The notes under the pieces are model-generated. The model searched no databases and was not told where the DNA came from. It saw only the letters and a list, made by a program, of their open reading frames with translations. From a virus: a stretch of 33,893 bases of DNA. The stretch lies in IMG/VR virus record IMGVR_UViG_3300031963_000540, positions 1-33,893 of that record; one strand, written 5' to 3'. Positions 7,428 through 29,652 of the stretch are shown piece by piece. The first letter of the stretch is position 1. Every line of letters starts with the position of its first letter. The translations under genes were made by a program, and so were the position numbers.

Positions 7428-10400
7428 TTATTCTCCAAGCAATCTACCGAATAGAACATCGTAGGCTGCTTGTGTGTTTTCATTAAATGTAGCCAGATCT
7501 TTCATACGAAGGATTGTGCTATCTTTAATTGACTGGATTAAATTAGATGATCCACCTAGTAAGTCATAAGATTGACGTTGATTCTTATATGATTGATATA
7601 AGTTAACCATCTCTCTTAATGCTTTAACTGTCTGAGGACTTACCTTTTCTACCTCTGGATCGGTAACCATAACCTCTAGGTCATTAAGGGCATTTTGACG
7701 ATCTATAGCCTTTTGACTACCTTGAGATAATTCTTCTGCCACTAATGGATTACCAGCAAAGAATGTTGTCTTCCAAGTGTTAAATTGTTGACGGGCTAAT
7801 CTGCGTATATAATCACTACCTGAGGATTGAAGAGTTCTTTCGTACTCATCTTTCTTCTCAAAGTATTGCTGTAAAGAAGATGCTGTCTGTACTTCTCTTA
7901 AGTAATCCTCTATTCTCTTGTTCTCAATAAGACCCATATCTCTCATAGTCTTATAAGCATCAAATGAGAATCCGCCCTTGTGAGGTATTAAAAAGGCTGC
8001 ACCCTCTTTATACTTCTCAAACAAAGATTTGTTTTGATCTACGAACTGACCAGACTCTTCTGCATATCTAAAATATGCAACTGTTTTACGCTCTGATTCA
8101 GTAACTGTAAATGGAATTTGGTCTGGATATAGTTCAACCCACTTAGCCATTGCTGCATCATAATCACCAGGATATTGATTTAATAGATTAGTCCAAACCT
8201 GCTTGAAGCTGGCTCTTCCATTATCGCGTATCCATTCAGCCATATCAGACTTTAGTTGTACCTGTGGCGATGCTGGAGCAAAGAAACCAAATACGAATCT
8301 AGTTCCTAGAATACCAATAGTAGTATTCTTAACTCTGATTCTATATTCTTCTAGTTCTTGAGCAGTTGGTGGAATCTTGTTGCCAAGATCATCAAAACGC
8401 TCTGGGATACCATTACCTGAAGCCTCTAGATATGTAACTGCTTTACGCCAAGCGCTTGCATACTGAGAATTACGCTCATCTCTGTTTAAAGCAGCGTATG
8501 CTCTATTGATATGAGCAGGTAAAAATGCTGAAACTACTGGTTGATCTACTGCATACTTACCTAAAGTATATCTAGTAATAGTATCAGCAGCGCCTGGGTT
8601 CCAAATTCCTACTAAATTTGTAAGAGTGCTTACAGATACACCAGCAACTGGACCAGCAAATGTTGGAATTAATGAATCTGGGTTTAAAGATGGAGTAATC
8701 ATCTTCACTTGCGCTCCAAATTGAATTGGAAGTGGAGATTTAAACTCATCTGGTAGGCCAAGAGTTGTTAAAACCTTATTTACTGCGTTATAAACTGGGG
8801 TAATTCCTGGGTAAATAAAGTAATCATTACCCTGATCATCCTGTTGTATGAATCCTGAGTGGCTAATTCCTTCATAAGTTAGTGCTGCCTTTTGAATTGC
8901 CTCTGGATTGTAACGAATAGCGCGAGAAATACGTCTGTAAAAGTCCTCAGTAGCCCGATAGAACCGAGCAAAGTTACGAATTGAGAAAGCAGTCTGAGTT
9001 CTAATTAAAGGATTATCAACATAGGCTAGTACTTCGCCCAATGCTCGTTCTTCTGTAACTCTTGCTAGATCTTGTTTAGCTTTCTTTGTGGCTTCTGCTA
9101 ACTTGCCAGCACTATTTGGATCTATATCTTTTGTATAAGACTTAATCCAAGCATCTTCAAATCCAGACTTACGCATTTGCTTACGAATCTGAATTATCTG
9201 ATTAGTTACAATTGGTTGACGAGACATACGAGCGTTAGCCATACCTAACCATCGCCATCCACTTTGAGTGAATGTAGCCGCATAGTTTCCAGTATCTGAA
9301 ACTGGCACCAAAGATGGGCCAACTACATACTTAGGAATATCACCTTCGCTAGTAGGTAGATCATCAAGGGATACTTTTCCTTGTACTACATACTCACCAG
9401 TTTTTTCATCTAGAACGCGAACCTTACTCAAAAGATCTGAGTTGATTTTACCGTTCTTGCTCATTACAAAAACTTCTTTTGTACGATCATAAACTAATTT
9501 AGCGTGTTGATCTATATCAATATTCTTAGCAGCAAGAATTGAAGAATCTACCAAGTCTGGTCTGGCTTGTATAGCGTTCTTAATTTCTAAGATAGCCTGT
9601 GCTTCAGTCTTATGTAGGTTAGCAACAGCCACTCTACCTAATTCATCATTAGATATATAAGAGATACGCAATAACCAGGATACTAATGTAGCCTCATCTT
9701 GACCATCTAAGCGAACATTCTTAAATCCTAGTTGACCTGCTTGTCTAGTATATTTAGTCTTAGGGCCAGCGATACGAACGGCTGCGCCGCGAGTACCTAC
9801 TTGACGAACCATATCTACTGCACTAGTTAAAAAGTCTCCACCAGTAGCAAAGTTAAATCCACCCTCAGAAATTATTGATAAAACATTTTCATAATCGCCA
9901 TAAACGATTTGCTCGCCAAGAAGTTCAATTGCCTCATCATCTAGTTTGCCTAGACCAGCAGCTTCTAGATAGCGATTAACGCGACCTTCAGATAAAGCGG
10001 TGGCAAGAATCTTTCTGGTTTGCTCTACCACTCCACCTTCTGTTTTGGCTTGTAGTTTCGCAATCTCTGCCTTGGCAGTTGCAATCTCTGCTGGATCTTT
10101 ACTAGATTTAGTTACTGCGTAAAGTTCAGAAATTTTCTTTTTACCAGCAATAATTTCTTCATCTAGTTTAGCGATTTGTTCTGAATATTTAACAGACTCA
10201 TCTCTATTTACAATACGCATAATAGAACCCAATGGGCTTTCTGCCATTGTATCCACATTAAATGTGTCTAATGCTTTTGCTTTATCAACAGGAGATAATG
10301 CGGTTAAAACTCTAGTATTTAACCTACGACCAGTAGCAACACCCCAAGGAGTACTACCGATTGATAGGTTAACCATTAAGTCTTCAATAGAGTTACGAAG

Positions 10401-12299
10401 AGCATAACGAGGACCAGCCAAAGTTAGGAAAGACCAATATCCTGTCATTCTTTCAAGGAAGGCACTATTAGCGACAGGGCCTATTAACCTTTGTCCTAAA
10501 GTACTACGAGCAGATAATCTGTCTATATCTACCAAGCTAGGAACTGTTACCTTGCTATTAAAATCTGTAGCAAAAGCACCGACATCATCTAGAGCATCAT
10601 CTACTCCAAATTTTTGTTTACCCTTGCCAACCATTTGTCGGCCAACATTTCTTGTTGGCTCAGTAGTATTAATACCGCGAATATCTGTAATTGTATTCAT
10701 TAAGCCATAAAACATTTCTTTGCGCTTACCAATTTCTGGTGTATTAGCAAAGGCCTCTGATATAAGTTTAGATTCTCTTTGTGGCAGAACTAAACGAGAT
10801 AAACGATAGATTTGATCTGGAGCATCTTTTGCAACCACATCTAATTCATTATCTTTAAACATAGGCGCTAAAGCGAATCTACGCTTAAAGTTATCTATAC
10901 GGACATTTATATCCGCAGTTGAAAATCTTGCAGGACCAAACTTTCTAGTTTTATTAAGAGCCTGTACGGATTCTACAATTTGCTCTCTGCCATCAACAAT
11001 AGCTTTATAGATACCAGCATCTGTTGCATCTTCTCCGAAGAAGGCAGAGTTAACTAACGCAGGTCCTACTTTATCAATATTAAATAATTTGTTTGTTGTA
11101 GTAAGTGTCGCAACTCTTAATTGGCGGCCTGGTGTCATACGAGGAGCAATTACTCTTCTACGACCAGCAGAGCCAATCATCATTTCGCCAGTTTGTTTAC
11201 CGTTTAAGAAAAAAGCCTTGGCTGTTAAAACATCCTCAATAGGTTCATCTGCTTTATTAAAAGACTGAATTACTGCAGGACCAAACTCAGGCGCTAGTGT
11301 AGACAATTCCTTTTTGATCTGTGTTGCAGCAAGAGTATCTTTACTTTCTTGTGCCTTGCGTAGATCTTTTAATTTAGCACCGTATGAGTTCCAGAAATTC
11401 TGAGTAGATGGTAGATCAAAATACTGATTAAACTTAACGCCATCTGCAGCAGCACTGCCAGTAATAACTTCTACTGAATACTTACGAATATCATTTAACT
11501 TTTTAACTTTACCAGCAAGAAGTAATGGATCTGCGAAAACTCTATATGCAGCATCTACTGAACCTGAGATTGCTTTATAAGCAAATCCAGATCCTTCTAA
11601 AAAGCCAGGTAATAGTAAGTTAGCAACTTGACGACCAGGAGAATACTTAGCTGCATTAACTGCATCTAATGTATCTTGAAATAATCCTCTAGCCTGATCT
11701 TCTGCTAATTTATCTTGAAAGCCAGGAATGTTTGTTCTTCTAGGATCAGCAAGTGCTAGATACTTAGATTGTTCTGGAGTAGCAGTCTTGATGATTTCAT
11801 CAATCTTTTCTCCAGCAGCAATACGCATTGCTACTGCTACTGCATCATTACCAAACTTAGAACGAGCATCTTCTATACGATTAGGGTTAAACTTCTTATC
11901 ACCTTTATCGTTTGCTTCATTCCAGGCAGTCTCTAGATCAACACCTTCTGTTAATGAAATAGCACCAGTACGATATAAGCGAGTAGAAAAATCTGATACG
12001 TTTTGTAAACCAGCAAGAACCTTGCCACCAAGGTTTCCAATTTGTCCACCTGTATAGTGCCAAGCGGTGCCAAGCGCACCGCGAGATGGTTTAGTTATTG
12101 GGTCTTCATTACCCATTACTTTAACTAAAGAATCTTGTTGTGCTGGAGTATATTTAGCAGCCTGACGTTGTGCAAGATCAGATGGAAGATTAGATAGTTC
12201 CTTATGAACAGTTAATAATTTACTAAGGCTATCTACTTTCTTTTTGTCTGATTCTGATAAACCTGCCGCAAATGCTGCTGCTTTTAAGTTTTCAGACAC
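7428..12299 (-). CDS. Very large virion-associated protein (1623 aa), putative ejection protein
   Basis: The largest gene in the window, about one seventh of its length. It starts at GTG 12299, sharing bases with the upstream TAG (TAGTG), with AGAGG upstream. It is mostly alpha-helical with a Gly-rich patch near residue 80 (TGGQIGNLGGKVLAGLQN), a charged coiled coil in the middle (EQIAKLDEEIIAGKKKISEL; PAEIATAKAEIAKLQAKTEG), and scattered hydrophobic stretches (WSFLTLAGPRYALRN; GTRFVFGFFAPASPQ). I looked for single-subunit RNA polymerase motifs as in N4 virion polymerase and did not find them. No lysozyme or peptidase motif is evident. Large size, position before the capsid genes and absence of a tape-measure gene suggest an internal protein ejected with the DNA. 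Confidence 0.7.
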   Translation of the reverse strand: MSENLKAAAFAAGLSESDKKKVDSLSKLLTVHKELSNLPSDLAQRQAAKYTPAQQDSLVKVMGNEDPITKPSRGALGTAWHYTGGQIGNLGGKVLAGLQNVSDFSTRLYRTGAISLTEGVDLETAWNEANDKGDKKFNPNRIEDARSKFGNDAVAVAMRIAAGEKIDEIIKTATPEQSKYLALADPRRTNIPGFQDKLAEDQARGLFQDTLDAVNAAKYSPGRQVANLLLPGFLEGSGFAYKAISGSVDAAYRVFADPLLLAGKVKKLNDIRKYSVEVITGSAAADGVKFNQYFDLPSTQNFWNSYGAKLKDLRKAQESKDTLAATQIKKELSTLAPEFGPAVIQSFNKADEPIEDVLTAKAFFLNGKQTGEMMIGSAGRRRVIAPRMTPGRQLRVATLTTTNKLFNIDKVGPALVNSAFFGEDATDAGIYKAIVDGREQIVESVQALNKTRKFGPARFSTADINVRIDNFKRRFALAPMFKDNELDVVAKDAPDQIYRLSRLVLPQRESKLISEAFANTPEIGKRKEMFYGLMNTITDIRGINTTEPTRNVGRQMVGKGKQKFGVDDALDDVGAFATDFNSKVTVPSLVDIDRLSARSTLGQRLIGPVANSAFLERMTGYWSFLTLAGPRYALRNSIEDLMVNLSIGSTPWGVATGRRLNTRVLTALSPVDKAKALDTFNVDTMAESPLGSIMRIVNRDESVKYSEQIAKLDEEIIAGKKKISELYAVTKSSKDPAEIATAKAEIAKLQAKTEGGVVEQTRKILATALSEGRVNRYLEAAGLGKLDDEAIELLGEQIVYGDYENVLSIISEGGFNFATGGDFLTSAVDMVRQVGTRGAAVRIAGPKTKYTRQAGQLGFKNVRLDGQDEATLVSWLLRISYISNDELGRVAVANLHKTEAQAILEIKNAIQARPDLVDSSILAAKNIDIDQHAKLVYDRTKEVFVMSKNGKINSDLLSKVRVLDEKTGEYVVQGKVSLDDLPTSEGDIPKYVVGPSLVPVSDTGNYAATFTQSGWRWLGMANARMSRQPIVTNQIIQIRKQMRKSGFEDAWIKSYTKDIDPNSAGKLAEATKKAKQDLARVTEERALGEVLAYVDNPLIRTQTAFSIRNFARFYRATEDFYRRISRAIRYNPEAIQKAALTYEGISHSGFIQQDDQGNDYFIYPGITPVYNAVNKVLTTLGLPDEFKSPLPIQFGAQVKMITPSLNPDSLIPTFAGPVAGVSVSTLTNLVGIWNPGAADTITRYTLGKYAVDQPVVSAFLPAHINRAYAALNRDERNSQYASAWRKAVTYLEASGNGIPERFDDLGNKIPPTAQELEEYRIRVKNTTIGILGTRFVFGFFAPASPQVQLKSDMAEWIRDNGRASFKQVWTNLLNQYPGDYDAAMAKWVELYPDQIPFTVTESERKTVAYFRYAEESGQFVDQNKSLFEKYKEGAAFLIPHKGGFSFDAYKTMRDMGLIENKRIEDYLREVQTASSLQQYFEKKDEYERTLQSSGSDYIRRLARQQFNTWKTTFFAGNPLVAEELSQGSQKAIDRQNALNDLEVMVTDPEVEKVSPQTVKALREMVNLYQSYKNQRQSYDLLGGSSNLIQSIKDSTILRMKDLATFNENTQAAYDVLFGRLLGE

Positions 12300-13076: not shown

Positions 13077-14828
13077 TTACGCTCCGCCAATGGCGGCGAG
13101 TAGTTGACCTATATCGGGTTGAGATTGTCCAGTAGCAGGGGCCGCACCGACTTGTTGTTCTTGAGTTGGCTGCGAGGCAGGGGCGGGGGCCGCACCTGCT
13201 ACTGGAAGTTGTGCTGCACCACCCATTGCTTGCTCCATTGGAGCAACTGGTTCTGGTGCAAATGCTTTTTCAATTACTGATTCTAAAGATTGTCCCTTTT
13301 GACGACCTTGGATTACTTCAGCGATCCTAGCCACAATTTGAGTTGGGTCTTGACCCTGCGAGGCAAGAGCGGGTATAGCTTGAGCATACTGAGCAACAGC
13401 AACGCGAAGAGAATCCCGCATCTCCTCAATGTCAACCCTTTGTTCTTCTTGCGTAACATTTAGATCTAGTGGTATCTCTCTGCGAACATAGTCGCGGCTA
13501 ACTAACTTATCTGAACGCATTTGTAGTAATGCGATAATGGCTCGGTTAGGATCCATACCAGACATAATTCCATAACGAACATCTACGCCATACTCGCCCT
13601 TGATGTCGCGAGATGGAATATATTTCATTGTGTAAGGAGTACCGTCATCGGTTCCCTTAATAGACTTAGTCATAGATCCAAAGATCTTCTCATCTACCTC
13701 AAAGCATAGACCGATTACATCTTGGAACAACTTAGCAAACTGTGCTTGTGCTGCTTTGATCTGTGTGTCAAAGCCTGCCTGTAATGCTTGCACACCACGA
13801 CCAGTGATAATAGAAGCATCTAATTGACCTGAACGAGACTCAGGATATCTAGCACCTAAGCGAAGTTCTCGCTCTAGTACGCCAGATTCTGTAAAGACTC
13901 CTGGTGGTAATTCTAGTGGAACTCTACGAATACCTTGTGGGTTAGCAGATCTCATAATTGAATCTGGACCAAGTGCTAACTCTTGTACATCCTGTGGGAT
14001 TGCAATAGGTGCTTGAATAGATTTCTCTGCTGCTTGAATTTGTAGAATAGCAAATCTTGAACGAGCAAGTTGTACTGCTAGTACATCATCAAACTGTCCG
14101 CGAGCCTCGCCATCTAAAGATGAGCGAACTGCGACTCTTGCTAAACACTTACCAATTGGGTTTGGTGTGTTAGATAAAATTAAGTTGTTACGTTCTGGGA
14201 TAAAGAGCATATCTTGGTCTTTATCGTGGTAACGCATTACTGATAGATAAGGTGATGCTGATTGATATACGCTACGAACATTTAGAATTTCATTAGCGTA
14301 CTCAGGAAACTGTGCTGCTAGTGATTCAGCATCTGATACAACTACCTGTGTTAAGGATGTGGTACGACCAAAACGGTCAATCTCTGGATACACACCGAAT
14401 GGGTTAAGTAGTCGGATGCGGGGATTGTTACCTTCATAATCCATCTCAACGAGAGCAGGTAACATACCATAGGTGTTAAACCAGTCAGCTCCTGAGTACA
14501 TCTGTAATGGTAGATCTGATGCTGCAACATAGTAGTTAGCAATACGGGTTCTAATATCAGCAGCTTTGCGCTGAGCATCTGAAACCATATTGGTAGCGGA
14601 GCAGTTAAATGATGGCATAGGTGCCATTGCTTCTGCTAAGTCTCTTGCTGCTACATCAATAAAGTTTGCTACTAGTGGCTTTGGATAATCCTCTGAGAAC
14701 ATAGAAGGATATACCTTAGAGATATCACCTTGACGAACTGAGAGTACATCTCGCATACGTTGATCACGAGAGGCGTACTTGGTCTGTAGTCTCTGCGCCT
14801 TTGCGTAGATCTCTTTAACTGTTAACAA
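13077..14828 (-). CDS. Portal protein
   Basis: A 583-aa protein forming the dodecameric ring at the head vertex through which DNA is packaged and ejected. The N-terminal half (KEIYAKAQRLQTKYASRDQR; YPKPLVANFIDVAARDLAEA; GADWFNTYGMLPALVEMD) and the stem and crown region (SIITGRGVQALQAGFDTQIK) follow portal layout. The C-terminal 70 or so residues are Ala/Pro/Gln-rich and probably disordered (PAPASQPTQEQQ). It lies directly after TerL, with ten bases between, the usual packaging-module order. The start at 14828 has a GGAG-type SD. Confidence 0.88.
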   Translation of the reverse strand: MLTVKEIYAKAQRLQTKYASRDQRMRDVLSVRQGDISKVYPSMFSEDYPKPLVANFIDVAARDLAEAMAPMPSFNCSATNMVSDAQRKAADIRTRIANYYVAASDLPLQMYSGADWFNTYGMLPALVEMDYEGNNPRIRLLNPFGVYPEIDRFGRTTSLTQVVVSDAESLAAQFPEYANEILNVRSVYQSASPYLSVMRYHDKDQDMLFIPERNNLILSNTPNPIGKCLARVAVRSSLDGEARGQFDDVLAVQLARSRFAILQIQAAEKSIQAPIAIPQDVQELALGPDSIMRSANPQGIRRVPLELPPGVFTESGVLERELRLGARYPESRSGQLDASIITGRGVQALQAGFDTQIKAAQAQFAKLFQDVIGLCFEVDEKIFGSMTKSIKGTDDGTPYTMKYIPSRDIKGEYGVDVRYGIMSGMDPNRAIIALLQMRSDKLVSRDYVRREIPLDLNVTQEEQRVDIEEMRDSLRVAVAQYAQAIPALASQGQDPTQIVARIAEVIQGRQKGQSLESVIEKAFAPEPVAPMEQAMGGAAQLPVAGAAPAPASQPTQEQQVGAAPATGQSQPDIGQLLAAIGGA

Positions 14829-23383: not shown

Positions 23384-23785
23384 TTACTTAGGCCAAGTAC
23401 CTTCCAAAACCATAATTGCAATAGCAGAATAGTTAAGTAGATCTACAAAACTATCCTTTAAAGATTCATTAGTAGGCTCAGCACCAGTATCTATGAGGTG
23501 ATTGATGCGAGCAGTCTTGTCGTGCATACGCACTCTTAATCCATTAAGCGCACCACCAGGTGCGTTAGAGATATTAGTTGGACCGTAATCTTTATGCTTA
23601 TCTAGAAGTAGATTACCTGCATCATCTAATACCTTCCACATATTAGCAATAAACTCTTTGCTTATCCCTTGATTGGAGGTGGCGATACTGTGATCGTTTC
23701 GCTTTCGTAATCTATCTTGACTATCAAGACTCCAAATGTCGTTAACCATACGGCTAATTCCGTCAGGTCCGAGTTCCTCATACAT
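23384..23785 (-). CDS. Nmad1/DUF1599-like helical protein (MazG-like layout)
   Basis: A 133-aa all-helical protein with LLLDKHKDYGPTNISNAPGG, then LNGLRVRMHDKTARINHLID and ESLKDSFVDLLNYSAIAIMV. The KHxDYGxxN ... RxxDKxARIxxL ... ESxxDxxxDLxxYxxI pattern matches the DUF1599 or nucleotide-modification-associated family, related in layout to MazG-type NTP pyrophosphohydrolases with paired acidic residues for Mg. In phages these are linked to nucleotide pool or modified-base metabolism. Its start overlaps the TOPRIM gene by eight bases. Specific substrate unknown. Confidence 0.82.
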   Translation of the reverse strand: MYEELGPDGISRMVNDIWSLDSQDRLRKRNDHSIATSNQGISKEFIANMWKVLDDAGNLLLDKHKDYGPTNISNAPGGALNGLRVRMHDKTARINHLIDTGAEPTNESLKDSFVDLLNYSAIAIMVLEGTWPK

Positions 23786-24425
23786 TAACTGCCCCCAATA
23801 TCCGTTTTGTCTCTTCTGTACCTTTTGCTAAATATACCTCATTTACATCCATACCAGGTGGCAACACACAGATCGTTGCGTTGATAACCTCTGATGCTAC
23901 TCTCCTAGAAAACTCAGCTCCTGGATTAGAACCATCTTCTTTAACATCATTATCACCTATAACTAATACCTTTCCATACCCATTCATCATCTTTGCAAAG
24001 TGTGGTTTCCAAGCAGCAACACCAGGAACTCCAACTGCAGGTATGCCTAAAGCACCAGTACAAATGATTGCATCTAACTCACCCTCACATACAGCGATAG
24101 TGTCTTTAGATTCTAGTAAAGCACTCACATTAAATAGGTGAGTCTTCTGACCAATAGCCATACCATACTTAGGTTTGCCCTCATCTAATCTTCTAAACTT
24201 AAAGCCAACACACATACCAAGAGCAGTAAAGTAAGGGATGGATAGCCAACCCTCATAGCCCTGATGCTCAGGTAGTGGATCAACCACTGTACCTAAACTA
24301 AAGGACTCAGCTATCTCTTTAGATATACCACGTTCTTTTAGAAACGTTGCGGTTTCTACGTTTAGACCCTGCTGGTAGCGAGTGGCCGCTTGCAGATATG
24401 ATTTCAATTGCTCTTGCGAGAGCAT
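23778..24425 (-). CDS. DNA primase TOPRIM subunit
   Basis: A 215-aa protein with an N-terminal helical part (ETATFLKERGISKEIAESFS) as in the DnaG core, then the TOPRIM domain: VCEGELDAI (Glu114), GVPGVAAWKPHF and VLVIGDND (Asp158, Asp160). These metal-binding residues catalyse RNA primer synthesis. The zinc-finger domain is on a separate gene (24319-24696) whose end overlaps this gene by 107 bases in another frame. No helicase domain is attached; the RecA-like ATPase at 25921-26769 probably fills that role. Start ATG 24425 has only a weak SD, suggesting translational coupling. Confidence 0.88.
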   Translation of the reverse strand: MLSQEQLKSYLQAATRYQQGLNVETATFLKERGISKEIAESFSLGTVVDPLPEHQGYEGWLSIPYFTALGMCVGFKFRRLDEGKPKYGMAIGQKTHLFNVSALLESKDTIAVCEGELDAIICTGALGIPAVGVPGVAAWKPHFAKMMNGYGKVLVIGDNDVKEDGSNPGAEFSRRVASEVINATICVLPPGMDVNEVYLAKGTEETKRILGAVNV

Positions 24426-24696
24426 CTTTAAACCCCAAACTTTCTTTCTCCATTACAACATTGACGGTGTTTCCACCCTTACCGCAGGTATGACAAAAGT
24501 ATAGGTTCTCTACTGTGTTAATCACTGCTGACTTACGAGAGTCATCGTGCATAACACACCTAACTGAACAAGCCCTGCCCTCTCTTACTTCCCCACCATA
24601 GAACTGAACTACTACTCCAATGGGAATTGCGTTCGCATCGGTTCTGCCATTAGTTTTGCCAGACTTCCTACTTCTGGACCAGTCTTGTGCTGGCAT
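24319..24696 (-). CDS. DNA primase zinc-finger (CHC2-like) subunit
   Basis: Start taken at ATG 24696, seven bases after AAGGAGA (125 aa); an ATG 18 bases upstream lacks this SD. The zinc finger has Cys43, Cys47, His50, Cys68 and Cys71 in RACSVRCVMHDDSRKSA and YFCHTCGKGGNTVN, followed by helix VVMEKESLGFKDALARAIEI, the CHC2 pattern that recognises priming sites. The basic tail (SKRRNRNVSKRTW) lies in the overlap with the TOPRIM gene. It overlaps the upstream 60-aa gene by 85 bases, so about half of this gene is dual-coding. Confidence 0.88.
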   Translation of the reverse strand: MPAQDWSRSRKSGKTNGRTDANAIPIGVVVQFYGGEVREGRACSVRCVMHDDSRKSAVINTVENLYFCHTCGKGGNTVNVVMEKESLGFKDALARAIEIISASGHSLPAGSKRRNRNVSKRTWYI

Positions 24697-24794
24697 CCGC
24701 AGTCTCCTTTGCATTTACAGTGGTGCTTATAGGCTAACTTAAAGTGGCGTTTAACATTCTCTTCGCCACCCTTCTTGCAGTGTTCGCAGATCAT
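24612..24794 (-). CDS. Small Cys/His-rich zinc protein (60 aa)
   Basis: The protein starts MICEHCKKGGEENVKRHFKL, then YKHHCKCKGDCGCQHKTGPE. CxxC at residues 3-6 and a dense C-x-C-x3-C-x-C-x-H cluster before KTGP resemble the small actinophage proteins that carry CxCQHKTGPG after a helix. It probably binds two metal ions. The 3' 85 bases are shared with the primase zinc-finger gene. ATGA overlap with the gene upstream. Function unknown. Confidence 0.75.
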   Translation of the reverse strand: MICEHCKKGGEENVKRHFKLAYKHHCKCKGDCGCQHKTGPEVGSLAKLMAEPMRTQFPLE

Positions 24795-25767: not shown

Positions 25768-25921
25768 CTACCTTTACCTTGTTTACTTTGTATGTTTGTT
25801 GGCCATCTTCTTCAGATACTTCAACAATTCCTGCCTGTATAAGTATAGAAGTAAAAGCAACAAAATCACTTTCCAATTTATTAATTTTATTTTTGACATA
25901 TTGAATCTCCGTATTAGCCAT
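25751..25921 (-). CDS. Small helical protein (56 aa)
   Basis: The protein reads MANTEIQYVKNKINKLESDF, then VAFTSILIQAGIVEVSEEDG and YKVNKVKVDERKE. A coiled-coil-like N-terminal helix (INKLESDFVAFTSIL) precedes a short beta part. The ATG shares a base with the stop of the helicase gene (TAATG). The 3' end overlaps the nuclease gene by 17 bases. Family unknown; perhaps a helicase or nuclease accessory. Confidence 0.65.
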   Translation of the reverse strand: MANTEIQYVKNKINKLESDFVAFTSILIQAGIVEVSEEDGQQTYKVNKVKVDERKE

Positions 25922-26769
25922 TAACCAACCTTGTCTCTCATACTTTCAAACCTTGCATCTCTGTTTAACATACGACCATAGTCATCAGCATCGCTGATCT
26001 GACAAGAGCCATAGTTCGTAAACAAAGTTATGTAATCCTTACCATCTGCAGTGTGCCTACCAAATCTATTCTTAACTGCAGCAACTCTAAGTTGTTGTCC
26101 GATAGGTTCATAACCTAGGGTCAAGATCATTGCTGGTAGTTGAGATACCTTACCGTGAATAGCCCTACGGTGAGGTGGTTCAGTGGTGGAGCCATACTCA
26201 GATTGCTCGCTGACGTGATGAAGTACCATCACACAGGCTTCAGTCTTGCGAGCCATATCGTGCAACTCCACCATTATCTGACGAAGCCCAGCCCATTCAT
26301 TATCTGATTCTGCTGCCACATTCATTAAGTTATCTATCACTATCAACTCTGGTGCGATACCGTAAAGTTCAATATAAGCCTTGATCTCCATCTCTATATC
26401 ATCTAAAGATGGTGATGAATCAAAGACCCATTGAATGTTTTGTACCTGATCAAACTTATCATCATAGTATTTACTATTCTTATTTAAGTTCTCTTCCACC
26501 AGAGTTTGATTATGACCTGAGATATGTGCTGCAGTTCGCAGCATCACAGTAGCTATATCAGTGTCGGCTGAAAAGAAAAGTGTTGGAACATCTGCCTTAA
26601 TTGCGTAGACCAAAGCAAACATAGACTTACCAGCGTTTGGTGCAGCAGCAACCATACAAACCTGCCCTCTTCTAAACCTGATTTGCTTGGACTTTAAATC
26701 ATTCCAAACATCAGGTAGAGGAGTAGCCTTTGTAGTTGTGCTATTCCAAGCCCTGCGTAAATTAAGCAA
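25921..26769 (-). CDS. DnaB/RecA-like replicative ATPase
   Basis: A 282-aa single RecA-fold domain. Walker A APNAGKS (residues 43-49), Walker B LIVIDN (142-147), an MVLHHVSE H-loop (181-188) and a later KNRFGRHTADGKDY segment are typical of DnaB-family helicase C-terminal domains. It lacks the N-terminal DnaB domain and may act as a hexameric helicase with the split primase. Start is TTG 26769, inside the end of whiB (eight-base overlap), with GAGAGG upstream. A RadA-type recombinase-related ATPase is less likely. Confidence 0.88.
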   Translation of the reverse strand: MLNLRRAWNSTTTKATPLPDVWNDLKSKQIRFRRGQVCMVAAAPNAGKSMFALVYAIKADVPTLFFSADTDIATVMLRTAAHISGHNQTLVEENLNKNSKYYDDKFDQVQNIQWVFDSSPSLDDIEMEIKAYIELYGIAPELIVIDNLMNVAAESDNEWAGLRQIMVELHDMARKTEACVMVLHHVSEQSEYGSTTEPPHRRAIHGKVSQLPAMILTLGYEPIGQQLRVAAVKNRFGRHTADGKDYITLFTNYGSCQISDADDYGRMLNRDARFESMRDKVG

Positions 26770-27019
26770 CGTCTGCCTCTCTCAAGGTTATACCTCGTTG
26801 TCTACGAATCCTCTTGCGTTCTACCGCACTAAGACCGCCCCATATTCCAAACCGTTCATTCCTGATGCCCCACTCTGCACACTCTTGCAAGTGGGGACAT
26901 CTCTTACACATTGATTTTAACTGTGATATCAGTACTCTGTCTTCCCCAAGTTCGGGAAAGAATAATTCAGTGGAGATTTCTTGACAGAGTGGGTCCTCAT
27001 AAGAAGCAGGCCCCCGCAT
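26762..27019 (-). CDS. whiB: WhiB-family iron-sulfur regulator
   Basis: An 85-aa protein with four conserved Cys (12, 38, 41, 47) that bind a 4Fe-4S cluster, the GIWGG turn (58-62) and a basic C-terminal segment (ERKRIRRQRG) for DNA contact. WhiB-like proteins bind sigma region 4 and DNA in Actinobacteria; phage versions (as in mycobacteriophage TM4) can reprogramme host expression and exclude superinfection. Here it sits in the replication unit with a sigma-like gene (22710-23345), a natural partner. No strong SD is visible, so it may be translated by coupling. Confidence 0.95.
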   Translation of the reverse strand: MRGPASYEDPLCQEISTELFFPELGEDRVLISQLKSMCKRCPHLQECAEWGIRNERFGIWGGLSAVERKRIRRQRGITLREADVA

Positions 27020-27022
27020 TAG

Positions 27023-27391
27023 TTATCTAATCCAGACTGTATCGCACTTATCTGTTGCACCCTTAGGTGCAGCGCACATCCATCCCTTCCAAGGACCCTT
27101 AGTTCCTTGTCCAGATCTAAAGCTCATAGCACCGTGCTTACAATCAGGTGCATCTCCTGATGGTACCACTGTGGTACCACCCAATACCTTCTTAGCATAG
27201 GCAACTGCGCCACCTGTTGGTTGTGCAGTAGCACCAAGTGTGGTGCCAGTAGAAGTAATTAGTGTTGATAGGTCAGCGATTGATGTTAGAGATGCCTCTA
27301 ACTCTGCCTGACTTGTTGCATATAGATTAACTAATGTTCCATCAGCCAACTTATAGTTGATCTGAAACTTAGTTGATTCAGGTGCAGCCAT
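27023..27391 (-). CDS. Conserved actinophage protein with Cys-containing C-terminus (122 aa)
   Basis: The N-terminal half (KFQINYKLADGTLVNLYATS) is alpha/beta with a Thr-rich linker. The C-terminal half has DAPDCKHGAMSFRSGQGTKG, then PWKGWMCAAPKGATDKCDTV. The CxHGxM...WKGxxCxxPKGxxxxC pattern is a phage zinc-knuckle motif that often appears next to RecB/Cas4-type nucleases. It starts directly after the nuclease stop (TAA, ATG). A nuclease or helicase accessory role is inferred from this neighbourhood. Confidence 0.75.
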   Translation of the reverse strand: MAAPESTKFQINYKLADGTLVNLYATSQAELEASLTSIADLSTLITSTGTTLGATAQPTGGAVAYAKKVLGGTTVVPSGDAPDCKHGAMSFRSGQGTKGPWKGWMCAAPKGATDKCDTVWIR

Positions 27392-28345
27392 TTATTTTCC
27401 TCCAGTTTTTATATTTAATCTAGCGAAAGGTTGTCCCTCCACCTTTGGTACAAAGCCTAGTAGTTTTTCTACTTCGGCTGTGTCAACTGTAGCCCTGCCA
27501 CTAACAGTTGTCCAAGTTATCTGAACACCACTAGCAGTCTCTCCAGTTATACCGTCAAACGCAGTTCGTAATGAATCTCGCTTTTCGGTCAGCTCTTTGA
27601 TTTGTTGATCTAGTTGTAAGTACATCAAGGCTGAGTGATCAACATTGTTATCTTCAATAACAGGTAGGTCATCCTTGATACGTTCTTTTTTTAAGCCAGA
27701 GCAACCAATCTCACCTGTAGCATCAAAGTACTTACAGTATGACTTGCAGTAATTCTGATCTCTCTCAGGATCTGGTACTACCTCTGAGTCTTTAACTCCC
27801 GCTAACCAGTTAAGAGCCTCTTCAGCAATAGCAGGATCATATGGTTCTGAGTGAACTAATACATCTCGCTCATCACCATCTCTGGCTATGGCTACAAGAT
27901 TAACAGTTCGGACTTTCCCCTTGCCCGACTTGTCAAGCAGGTAGCCATAGACCTGAACTTGCCAGCGTTGTTGTGTTGAAGGAAAGTAAGAAAGGTTTTG
28001 TTTCTTAACTGTCTTCCAATCTACAACATCACCTGACTCTGGAATGAATAGATCTATATGAGCTTTCATACCAGAATACTCAACTGCAGTTTCAACCCAA
28101 TACTTCTCGCCCTTTGGATCTACACTGCGTATTGCTTCCTCAATAGTAGCGTGGATAGCAGTACCCATAATCGCTGCTAACTTTAATTCGTTCTCATTAG
28201 TTTCAGGTTGATCGTTAAGACGATACCAAACTTTTCTACGGCAACCACCTAACTCAGATGGACCTACCTGTGTCTGTTTAGATCTAGCCCTACCAGCATC
28301 CTTAGCCCGTAGTACTTGTAGTAGTAATTCTTTTGGGTCGCTCAT
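27392..28345 (-). CDS. Cas4/RecB-type PD-(D/E)XK exonuclease
   Basis: I use ATG 28345 because it makes an ATGA overlap with the upstream stop (317 aa); an ATG four codons earlier is possible. The core has GTAIHATIEE (His65), HIDLF (Asp98), DVVDWKT (Asp109, Lys111) and a QVQVYGYLL QxxxY motif. Cys35 in GGCRRKVWY and Cys200, Cys204 and Cys215 in the C-terminal YCKSYC...IGC could ligate a 4Fe-4S cluster, as in Cas4 and AddB. The last 100 residues form a coiled coil (DQQIKELTEKRDSLRTAF). Likely role is 5' end resection in recombination-linked replication. Confidence 0.9.
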   Translation of the reverse strand: MSDPKELLLQVLRAKDAGRARSKQTQVGPSELGGCRRKVWYRLNDQPETNENELKLAAIMGTAIHATIEEAIRSVDPKGEKYWVETAVEYSGMKAHIDLFIPESGDVVDWKTVKKQNLSYFPSTQQRWQVQVYGYLLDKSGKGKVRTVNLVAIARDGDERDVLVHSEPYDPAIAEEALNWLAGVKDSEVVPDPERDQNYCKSYCKYFDATGEIGCSGLKKERIKDDLPVIEDNNVDHSALMYLQLDQQIKELTEKRDSLRTAFDGITGETASGVQITWTTVSGRATVDTAEVEKLLGFVPKVEGQPFARLNIKTGGK

Positions 28346-28512
28346 ATGGACATCCATCCTTCATACTGTGCATCAGGATTGTCCTGTAGCCACTGTGCTC
28401 TCATCTTGTTTTGCTCCTCCCAATTCATATCAGAGTCCCTACTTGATTTCAACCCATCCTCATAACCTTTTTCGTAGGCCTCTTGGATAGCAAACTTCCT
28501 AGTCTTGTTCAT
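28342..28512 (-). CDS. Small charged protein (56 aa)
   Basis: The protein reads MNKTRKFAIQEAYEKGYEDG, then LKSSRDSDMNWEEQNKMRAQ. It has a helical pattern with an AYEKGYEDGL block, and a C-terminal part rich in Gln, Asp and Trp (WLQDNPDAQYEGWMSI). ATG 28512 shares one base with the preceding stop. ATGA overlap with the nuclease gene downstream. Function unknown; probably helical. Confidence 0.7.
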   Translation of the reverse strand: MNKTRKFAIQEAYEKGYEDGLKSSRDSDMNWEEQNKMRAQWLQDNPDAQYEGWMSI

Positions 28513-29087
28513 TATTTTTTCCTTCTCTTCTGCACCGCAATCTGAATTGGTGGGCAGGTATTAATATCTAATAAGCTGGCTATCTCAACCGCTTTTTGTG
28601 CCAACTGTGCTGCTTCATCTTGTACTAGAAACTTATCGCTTTGCCTGTTATACATATACCCAAGTGCAAACTGACCACCTGAACCAATACCGTAGTAGTT
28701 TGCTTCTGATTGTATAAAGGACATATCAGATGCAATATGGAATATAACTCCATTAAAGGCTATTAGATAATCAAAGCCAGCATCTTTATCTTTATCATTA
28801 TCATTCCAAGCATAACCATTCTCATTGAAGGTTTTAATGATTGAAGGAATAATTCTCTTACCCATAAACTGCACTGGGTCATAGGTAACTTTATATGATG
28901 GTGGGTTCCAGTTATATGTAAGGATATCTCCTGGTCTAGTATCACCAGTAATGGCTAGTAGATACTGACCTTTCTCAATTATCTTTGGAGTTTTTAAGGA
29001 TATAGTTCTAAGGTTATCTTCTGTGATCTGCGAATCCGCAGCTAATATACAGAAGTCTTTACCTTGTATACCTACAACTGTAGTCAC
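28512..29087 (-). CDS. Proteasome beta/HslV-like Ntn hydrolase
   Basis: A 191-aa protein starting (M)TTVVGIQGKDFCILAADSQI. After Met removal the first Thr is the catalytic N-terminal nucleophile. Asp17 (ILAADSQ, mature numbering) and Lys31 or Lys34 (SLKTPKI) are placed as in HslV and 20S beta subunits. A later GIGSGGQFALGYMY matches the conserved G-rich SGG segment. There is no propeptide, as in HslV. No ATPase partner (HslU, ARC/Mpa) was seen. Start GTG 29087 has AGGAG seven bases upstream. First gene of the leftward replication unit. Could cleave host proteins, alter the host proteasome, or serve assembly. Confidence 0.85.
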   Translation of the reverse strand: MTTVVGIQGKDFCILAADSQITEDNLRTISLKTPKIIEKGQYLLAITGDTRPGDILTYNWNPPSYKVTYDPVQFMGKRIIPSIIKTFNENGYAWNDNDKDKDAGFDYLIAFNGVIFHIASDMSFIQSEANYYGIGSGGQFALGYMYNRQSDKFLVQDEAAQLAQKAVEIASLLDINTCPPIQIAVQKRRKK

Positions 29088-29103
29088 TATCTCTCCTATC
29101 TCT

Positions 29104-29219: not shown

Positions 29220-29239
29220 GCGGCGCTCTAAAGCGCCGC
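29220..29239 (+). other. GC-rich hairpin before or at the start of the rightward zinc-ribbon gene
   Basis: GCGGCGCT (29220-29227), loop CTAA, AGCGCCGC (29232-29239): a perfect eight-base-pair stem with a tetraloop, no U-run. With the ATG at 29255 it is in the leader; with GTG 29201 it would be inside the coding sequence. Possible attenuator or stability element. Confidence 0.5.
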
Positions 29240-29254
29240 AGTGGTACGGTCTTT

Positions 29255-29482
29255 ATGCTCCGTCTACCAAGGCTGCGAAAAAACAAAGAAAGCCTACCAC
29301 CAAAGTTCGGCTCTGATCTAAGAGACCTTGGACCTTTACACGCCTGTCCCTGCGGTTCTATGACCTTTACAATTATGGCATCCTTCTATGATTATGAATT
29401 ATCTTGGTACCACCTAGACGGTGAGTGTGCCAACTGCGGTAACTTGGTTATAGTTCCAACACCATTAGATAGGCCAGAGTAA
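29255..29482 (+). CDS. Zinc-ribbon protein (75 aa), lone rightward gene
   Basis: The protein starts MLRLPRLRKNKESLPPKFGS, then DLRDLGPLHACPCGSMTFTI and GECANCGNLVIVP. CPCGS and CANCGN are the two knuckles of one ribbon, with a beta-rich segment between (ASFYDYELSWYHLD). I take ATG 29255, although no SD precedes it. The frame is open back to GTG 29201, which would lie seven bases after a TACAAT -10-like sequence (29188-29193), allowing a leaderless transcript and 18 extra basic residues. It is followed by its own terminator. Family: small actinophage zinc protein, function unknown. Confidence 0.75.
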   Translation: MLRLPRLRKNKESLPPKFGSDLRDLGPLHACPCGSMTFTIMASFYDYELSWYHLDGECANCGNLVIVPTPLDRPE

Positions 29483-29598: not shown

Positions 29599-29627
29599 AA
29601 AAAAAGAGGGGCGCAGTTAAGCGCCCC
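29599..29627 (-). terminator. Strong terminator of the late/lysis unit
   Basis: On the minus strand GGGGCGC, loop TTAACT, GCGCCCC, then TCTTTTTTT: a seven-base-pair GC stem (29608-29614 with 29621-29627) and a long U-run. It is the first strong terminator reached by leftward late transcription coming from the right edge, 26 bases after the holin gene. Confidence 0.92.
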
Positions 29628-29652
29628 CCTGTGTTGCCTCGCGGTATTAAAT

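Follow-up and report, generated by a model that had tools for sequence, protein, structure and literature searches.

An actinophage proteasome-like Ntn hydrolase with an intact catalytic site, encoded at the head of a replication operon

What could a phage gain from a proteasome-like peptidase gene that stands at the head of its replication operon? This question was raised by a viral sequence of 33,893 nucleotides (IMG/VR record IMGVR_UViG_3300031963_000540), the whole of which was analysed and is referred to below as the window. Phage proteasome homologues are known mainly as sequences, and the literature consulted yielded no member to which a substrate or role had been assigned.

The gene in question (28512-29087, minus strand) encodes a group I proteasome-like Ntn hydrolase of 191 amino acids, in which the catalytic Thr1 directly follows the initiator Met. 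An AGGAG motif is located 5 nt upstream of its GTG start codon, and this Shine-Dalgarno region (29088-29103, minus strand) was kept across the upstream alignment of close relatives. One IMG/VR scan yielded 254 relatives of the protein and wider scans yielded additional ones. In these relatives, the codon preceding Thr-Thr was GTG, TTG or ATG, with the Thr following constantly, and no further upstream in-frame start for the open reading frame was present within the window. Variation of the start codon before a constant Thr placed the translation start and excluded a propeptide, thus confirming the Met-Thr start without propeptide that had been proposed in an earlier note on this DNA; a start elsewhere was not found in the relatives. 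The protein matched the Pfam Proteasome profile (PF00227; E 1.8e-9, 37.9 bits versus a curated cut-off of 22.4) and the PHROG 1040 profile 'peptidase HslV family' (E 2.3e-26). Residues are numbered below with Thr as residue 1 and Met as residue 0, so that residue 2 of the structural model is Thr1.

An AlphaFold (AF2) model of the protein (mean pLDDT 90.9, pTM 0.87), for which loci were drawn from viral and genome contigs only, showed the four-layer Ntn arrangement, with helices at residues 50-59, 71-89, 138-147 and 156-173. The last strand (182-187) was followed by a short tail, and absence of the C-terminal S12/H5 elements indicated a compact group I subunit. Structural comparisons returned tables with mostly 20S, BPH and HslV entries, in which Z differences below 1 were regarded as ties. 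The best solved match was BPH (betaproteobacterial proteasome homologue; Z 20.2, 174 aligned residues, rmsd 2.9), including its epoxomicin complex 5ovt, with a Foldseek E-value of 5e-13. After BPH, 20S beta and HslV chains were nearly tied, and a sequence-profile search returned matches in the order BPH, HslV, 20S beta. Model residue 2 superposed on residue 1 of BPH, and Thr1 also superposed on Thr1 of HslV and 20S beta. Model and fold search thus agreed with the earlier reading of an Ntn fold with an N-terminal Thr nucleophile placed in the active site.

Thr1, Thr2, Asp17, Lys34 and Gly47 were unchanged in all 116 distinct viral sequences compared. Lys34 corresponds to Lys33 of HslV and 20S beta by virtue of a one-residue loop insertion. 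Of the catalytic triad suggested earlier (Thr1, Asp17 and Lys31 or Lys34), Thr1, Asp17 and Lys34 therefore stood, whereas Lys31 varied freely. The 'SGG' region was kept, as had been noticed, with Ser or Thr at its serine position (Ser129) in 116 of 116 viral sequences. At the positions of Ser169 and Asp166, occupied in the window protein by Thr176 and Asp173, the viral sequences had Thr or Ser and, in 85 of 116 cases, Asp, respectively. Comparison of the gene with close relatives gave dN/dS values of about 0.03-0.08, and the relatives' alignment showed that very strong constraint reached the 'DSQITEDNLR' segment adjoining Asp17. In three contigs, the Ntn protein was 87-90% identical to that of the window, and the major capsid protein (MCP) and portal protein 74-76%. 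Identification of the gene product as a proteasome-like Ntn hydrolase with an intact catalytic site is, in both fold and site, well supported.

Upstream, a strong intrinsic terminator after a holin-like gene (29605-29630, minus strand) marks the Ntn unit off from the late genes. A second, nearer terminator-like hairpin (29220-29239, minus strand) lies about 140-157 nt 5' of the start in relatives, in which the hairpin and its T-run were kept across three unrelated stem sequences. Downstream, a 56-aa open reading frame (28342-28512, minus strand) starts in overlap with the Ntn stop codon (TAATG); it occurs in some relatives and is replaced by other small open reading frames in others. It is followed by genes for a Cas4/RecB-like exonuclease (27392-28357; an ATGA overlap makes 28345 its probable start), a Mycobacteriophage L5 gp49-like protein (27023-27391), a WhiB transcription factor (26762-27019) and a DnaB-like helicase that is not an unfoldase (25921-26769), all on the minus strand. 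The order holin-Ntn-exonuclease-gp49-WhiB-helicase was kept in the 8 near-full contigs examined, in one of which the holin-like gene was undetected, and was similar in other window-type loci. The upstream terminators, TAATG coupling and kept order indicated that the gene was correctly described as leading the replication operon, and WhiB, a marker of actinobacterial hosts, agreed with the host that had been assumed. Gene order suggests early or middle expression. In a simple promoter scan, sites were no more numerous than in shuffled sequences, and no Rfam or tRNA features were found in the window.

Several other features of the window were recorded. A conserved small open reading frame with two CxxC-like pairs (29256-29482, plus strand; zinc-ribbon-like) is divergent from the Ntn gene. 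A primase is split into zinc-finger and Toprim open reading frames that overlap in different frames (23778-24714, minus strand), and the same overlap of two primase frames occurs in Streptomyces phage Immanuel3. A 1623-aa protein without a PHROG match (7428-12299, minus strand), which has a 1764-aa homologue in phage E7, is probably a large virion protein. Highly repetitive coding sequence of the Gly/Pro type at positions 1-850 probably belongs to a collagen-like tail protein truncated where the contig ends.

In a phylogenetic tree, the proteins of the window and of phages E7, DSL-LC01, Hum25 and Pumpernickel formed one clade (92/94), separate from other phage homologues, with long deep branches. 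This clade takes in cultured phages of 'Ca. Planktophila', Arthrobacter and Microbacterium. The Planktophila phages LanE43-AprE7 and AprF5 (OX376640, OX376641; PMC10202952) encode a homologue with 28-30% identity to the window protein; a literature search retrieved no useful paper linking Planktophila with the proteasome. In Arthrobacter phages Hum25 and Pitbull and Microbacterium phage Pumpernickel, for which laboratory hosts are available, the homologue is annotated as 'protease'. Hum25 and Pumpernickel, assigned to the window's clade by the tree, have long branches and carry the gene in other genomic places. A single scan of the genome_contigs collection retrieved 11 chromosomal loci, all proteobacterial or planctomycete. 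Since none was actinobacterial, the close relatives appear, within this collection, to be virus-restricted.

E7-type and window-type phages share TerL (45% identity), portal (50%), scaffold (39%) and MCP (48%), and their genomes are otherwise largely colinear. The Ntn gene appears as one gene that changed place: before the exonuclease gene in window-type phages and after the portal gene in E7-type phages (locus L082, 7500-8036; loci L143-L222). In all 79 E7-type loci with both genes, the order was TerL-portal-Ntn and the Ntn gene started 18-97 nt after the portal gene; in E7, a scaffold-like gene and the MCP gene lie downstream in the same direction. In the window, the portal gene (13077-14828, minus strand) does not lie directly upstream of the Ntn gene. 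The E7-type protein was predicted to have the same fold (pLDDT 91.2), with a last helix (H4) of 11 instead of 18 residues.

The earlier remark that an ATPase partner was not visible held for unfoldases of the ClpX/HslU type: AAA_2 (PF07724) was found in 0 of 21 related contigs, some of which may be incomplete. A PF00004 search gave eight hits. The two that were read, a DnaB/KaiC-like replicative helicase in an E7-type phage and a CobS-like AAA+ protein in a DSL-type phage, were ruled out as proteasomal unfoldases. In DSL-type phages (loci L081 and L226), the CobS-like gene is located several kb from the Ntn gene, and in DSL-LC01 an AAA ATPase gene adjoins a gene annotated 'cobalamin biosynthesis protein'.

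The explanation that we regard as best, and to which we give about an even chance, is that the gene encodes a self-compartmentalising threonine peptidase of the BPH type, which acts independently of an ATPase and serves in host takeover. In this mechanism, host methionine aminopeptidase would remove Met0 and thereby expose Thr1. The subunits would then build a homo-oligomeric double ring like that of BPH, in which the Thr1 sites face inwards and residues about 90-105 form a charged pore loop. Without a phage ATPase, such a particle could act on proteins that are unstructured or that it recognises selectively, or could be fed by a host factor. As the putative first product of an early or middle exonuclease-WhiB-replication unit, the peptidase would most likely serve during takeover to remove certain proteins of the host or the phage. 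Contacts between rings have been attributed to helix H4 (PMC8665760). The E7-type protein has a short H4 and its gene lies beside the portal gene, so that a single early role shared by the entire clade is uncertain.

Another candidate role is suggested by the invariable position directly after the portal gene in E7-type loci. Prohead proteases process head proteins, and the place following TerL and portal is a usual slot for them. A maturation protease linked to head or portal, which would process or remove scaffold or other head proteins, is consistent with this position and with the scaffold-like and MCP genes downstream. However, window-type phages, which have TerL, portal, scaffold and MCP in common with E7, always carry the gene beside the replication module. 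In Immanuel3, whose TerL, portal and MCP are homologous, profile search revealed no Ntn homologue, nor did it match gp32, which lies just upstream of the exonuclease. These two observations demoted a prohead protease as main explanation. Moreover, inspection of the MCP start revealed no obvious cleavable N-terminal domain, and Hum25, Pumpernickel and DSL-LC01 carry the gene in non-head regions. As an account of the family, head maturation is therefore improbable; a portal-linked maturation role in E7-type phages is possible. That actinophages use a stand-alone ring protease for two ends, clearing of host proteins at takeover in the window type or portal-linked head maturation in the E7 type, seems unlikely.

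The remaining alternatives concern partners and activity. Actinobacteria often have a Pup-proteasome, so that the Ntn protein might join, poison or retarget the host 20S particle (PrcA/PrcB). Its fold is compatible, with Z up to 18.6 for the E7-type model versus Mycobacterium tuberculosis 20S chains, and infection by a Rhodococcus phage raises host proteasome transcripts (PMC10986025). Yet the sequence is nearest to BPH and HslV rather than PrcB, the propeptide used in bacterial 20S assembly is lacking, and related proteins are also encoded by phages whose hosts are not Actinobacteria. For poisoning of the host proteasome, as the earlier note had considered, nothing positive was found; the double rings of BPH, the closest relative with a solved structure, need no alpha subunits. 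We consider interference with the host 20S particle very improbable. A peptidase core dependent on an AAA+ unfoldase of the host (for example ClpX, ClpC or Mpa) would fit the lack of a ClpX/HslU-type gene in the 21 contigs. It would also fit the behaviour of purified BPH, which showed no activity towards standard peptides or casein and for which its authors considered a missing cofactor (PMC5777263). This reading is nevertheless rather unlikely: no docking element was identified, and no co-occurring AAA+ interactor was reported for new homologues by Fuchs et al. (2021; PMC8665760). The inertness of BPH further implies that an intact active site is no guarantee of general proteolysis. The phage protein could instead be a highly specific Ntn enzyme, for instance one that ligates proteins or processes a single target, or an enzymatically silent binder. 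In connectase the same fold has become a monomeric ligase (PMC8665760), and the constraint extending to the segment beside Asp17 would agree with such specialisation. Classical catalytic residues throughout the viral sequences argue against it, as does the predicted lack, between strands 3 and 4, of an insertion like that of connectase, and we judge it unlikely.

The preferred takeover peptidase and its alternatives concern a clade that occurs commonly in viral contigs from freshwater, evolves under very strong purifying selection and was unseen in the actinobacterial genomes of the collection searched. Since the clade includes cultured phage-host pairs, its function is directly testable. If a head maturation role in E7-type phages were true, it would represent the first prohead protease with a Thr nucleophile; to our knowledge, none has been described so far.

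Membership of known systems was examined for each candidate group. The earlier assignment as HslV-like or PrcB-like did not hold as membership. With the NCBIfam equivalog models for HslV, scores were 26.6 versus 137 and 24.5 versus 157.75 bits, and no HslU was found in the contigs searched. HslV (ClpQ) shares the Ntn fold, Thr1 and a compact subunit with the window protein, which is 20% identical to the Escherichia coli protein. For bacterial 20S beta (PrcB), no match to TIGR03690 was reported, and the start codon lies directly before Thr1. PPH and AAH, described in phages by Fuchs, Alva and Lupas (2021; PMC8665760), resemble PHROG 1040 members and the window protein: all are group I proteasome homologues that phages encode, and they have neither a propeptide nor a known AAA+ partner. 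PPH comprises about 140 aa and lacks helix H2; the window protein has 191 aa, and its predicted helices 50-59 and 71-89 were taken as H1 and H2, which argued against membership. The related, phage-borne AAH group (OC.661151) has its highest abundance in Actinobacteria, and the clade touches on a gap stated in the 2021 survey, in which no Actinobacteria-specific phage with AAH was found (PMC8665760). Many phages carry GenBank annotations as 'peptidase HslV family' or 'protease'. In Aeromonas phage 2L372X (NC_048770; locus L090, 3001-3552 and the next gene), two adjacent genes are annotated 'peptidase HslV family', the second of which matches the profile weakly; they may represent a diverged alpha/beta-like pair. 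The earlier statement that no characterised phage example was known thus stood with respect to function, for which the literature yielded no characterisation, but not with respect to the family, which is known from PHROG 1040, PPH, AAH and these annotations.

BPH (PDB 5ovs, 5ovt, 5ovu) is the known system that the window protein resembles most, by profile as well as by structure; the structural alignments give 22-26% identity. BPH lacks both a propeptide and an unfoldase, loses its Met and assembles as a tetradecamer, and epoxomicin binds to its Thr1 (PMC5777263). Absence of a propeptide, Thr1 after Met, Asp17/Lys33/Gly47, a charged pore loop and lack of a dedicated unfoldase are common to both. 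Differences are that BPH is chromosomal and that its pore loop was described as highly acidic (PMC5777263); the pore loop of the window protein is likewise rich in acidic residues (6 of 18). In the tree, BPH-like cellular and actinophage sequences fell into separate supported groups, which spoke against BPH membership, with deep placement made unsure by long branches. The window protein represents a new, well-conserved and apparently virus-restricted actinophage clade of a known, uncharacterised family, which the comparisons with PPH, HslV and PrcB set apart from these three groups, and which has its nearest structural counterpart in BPH.
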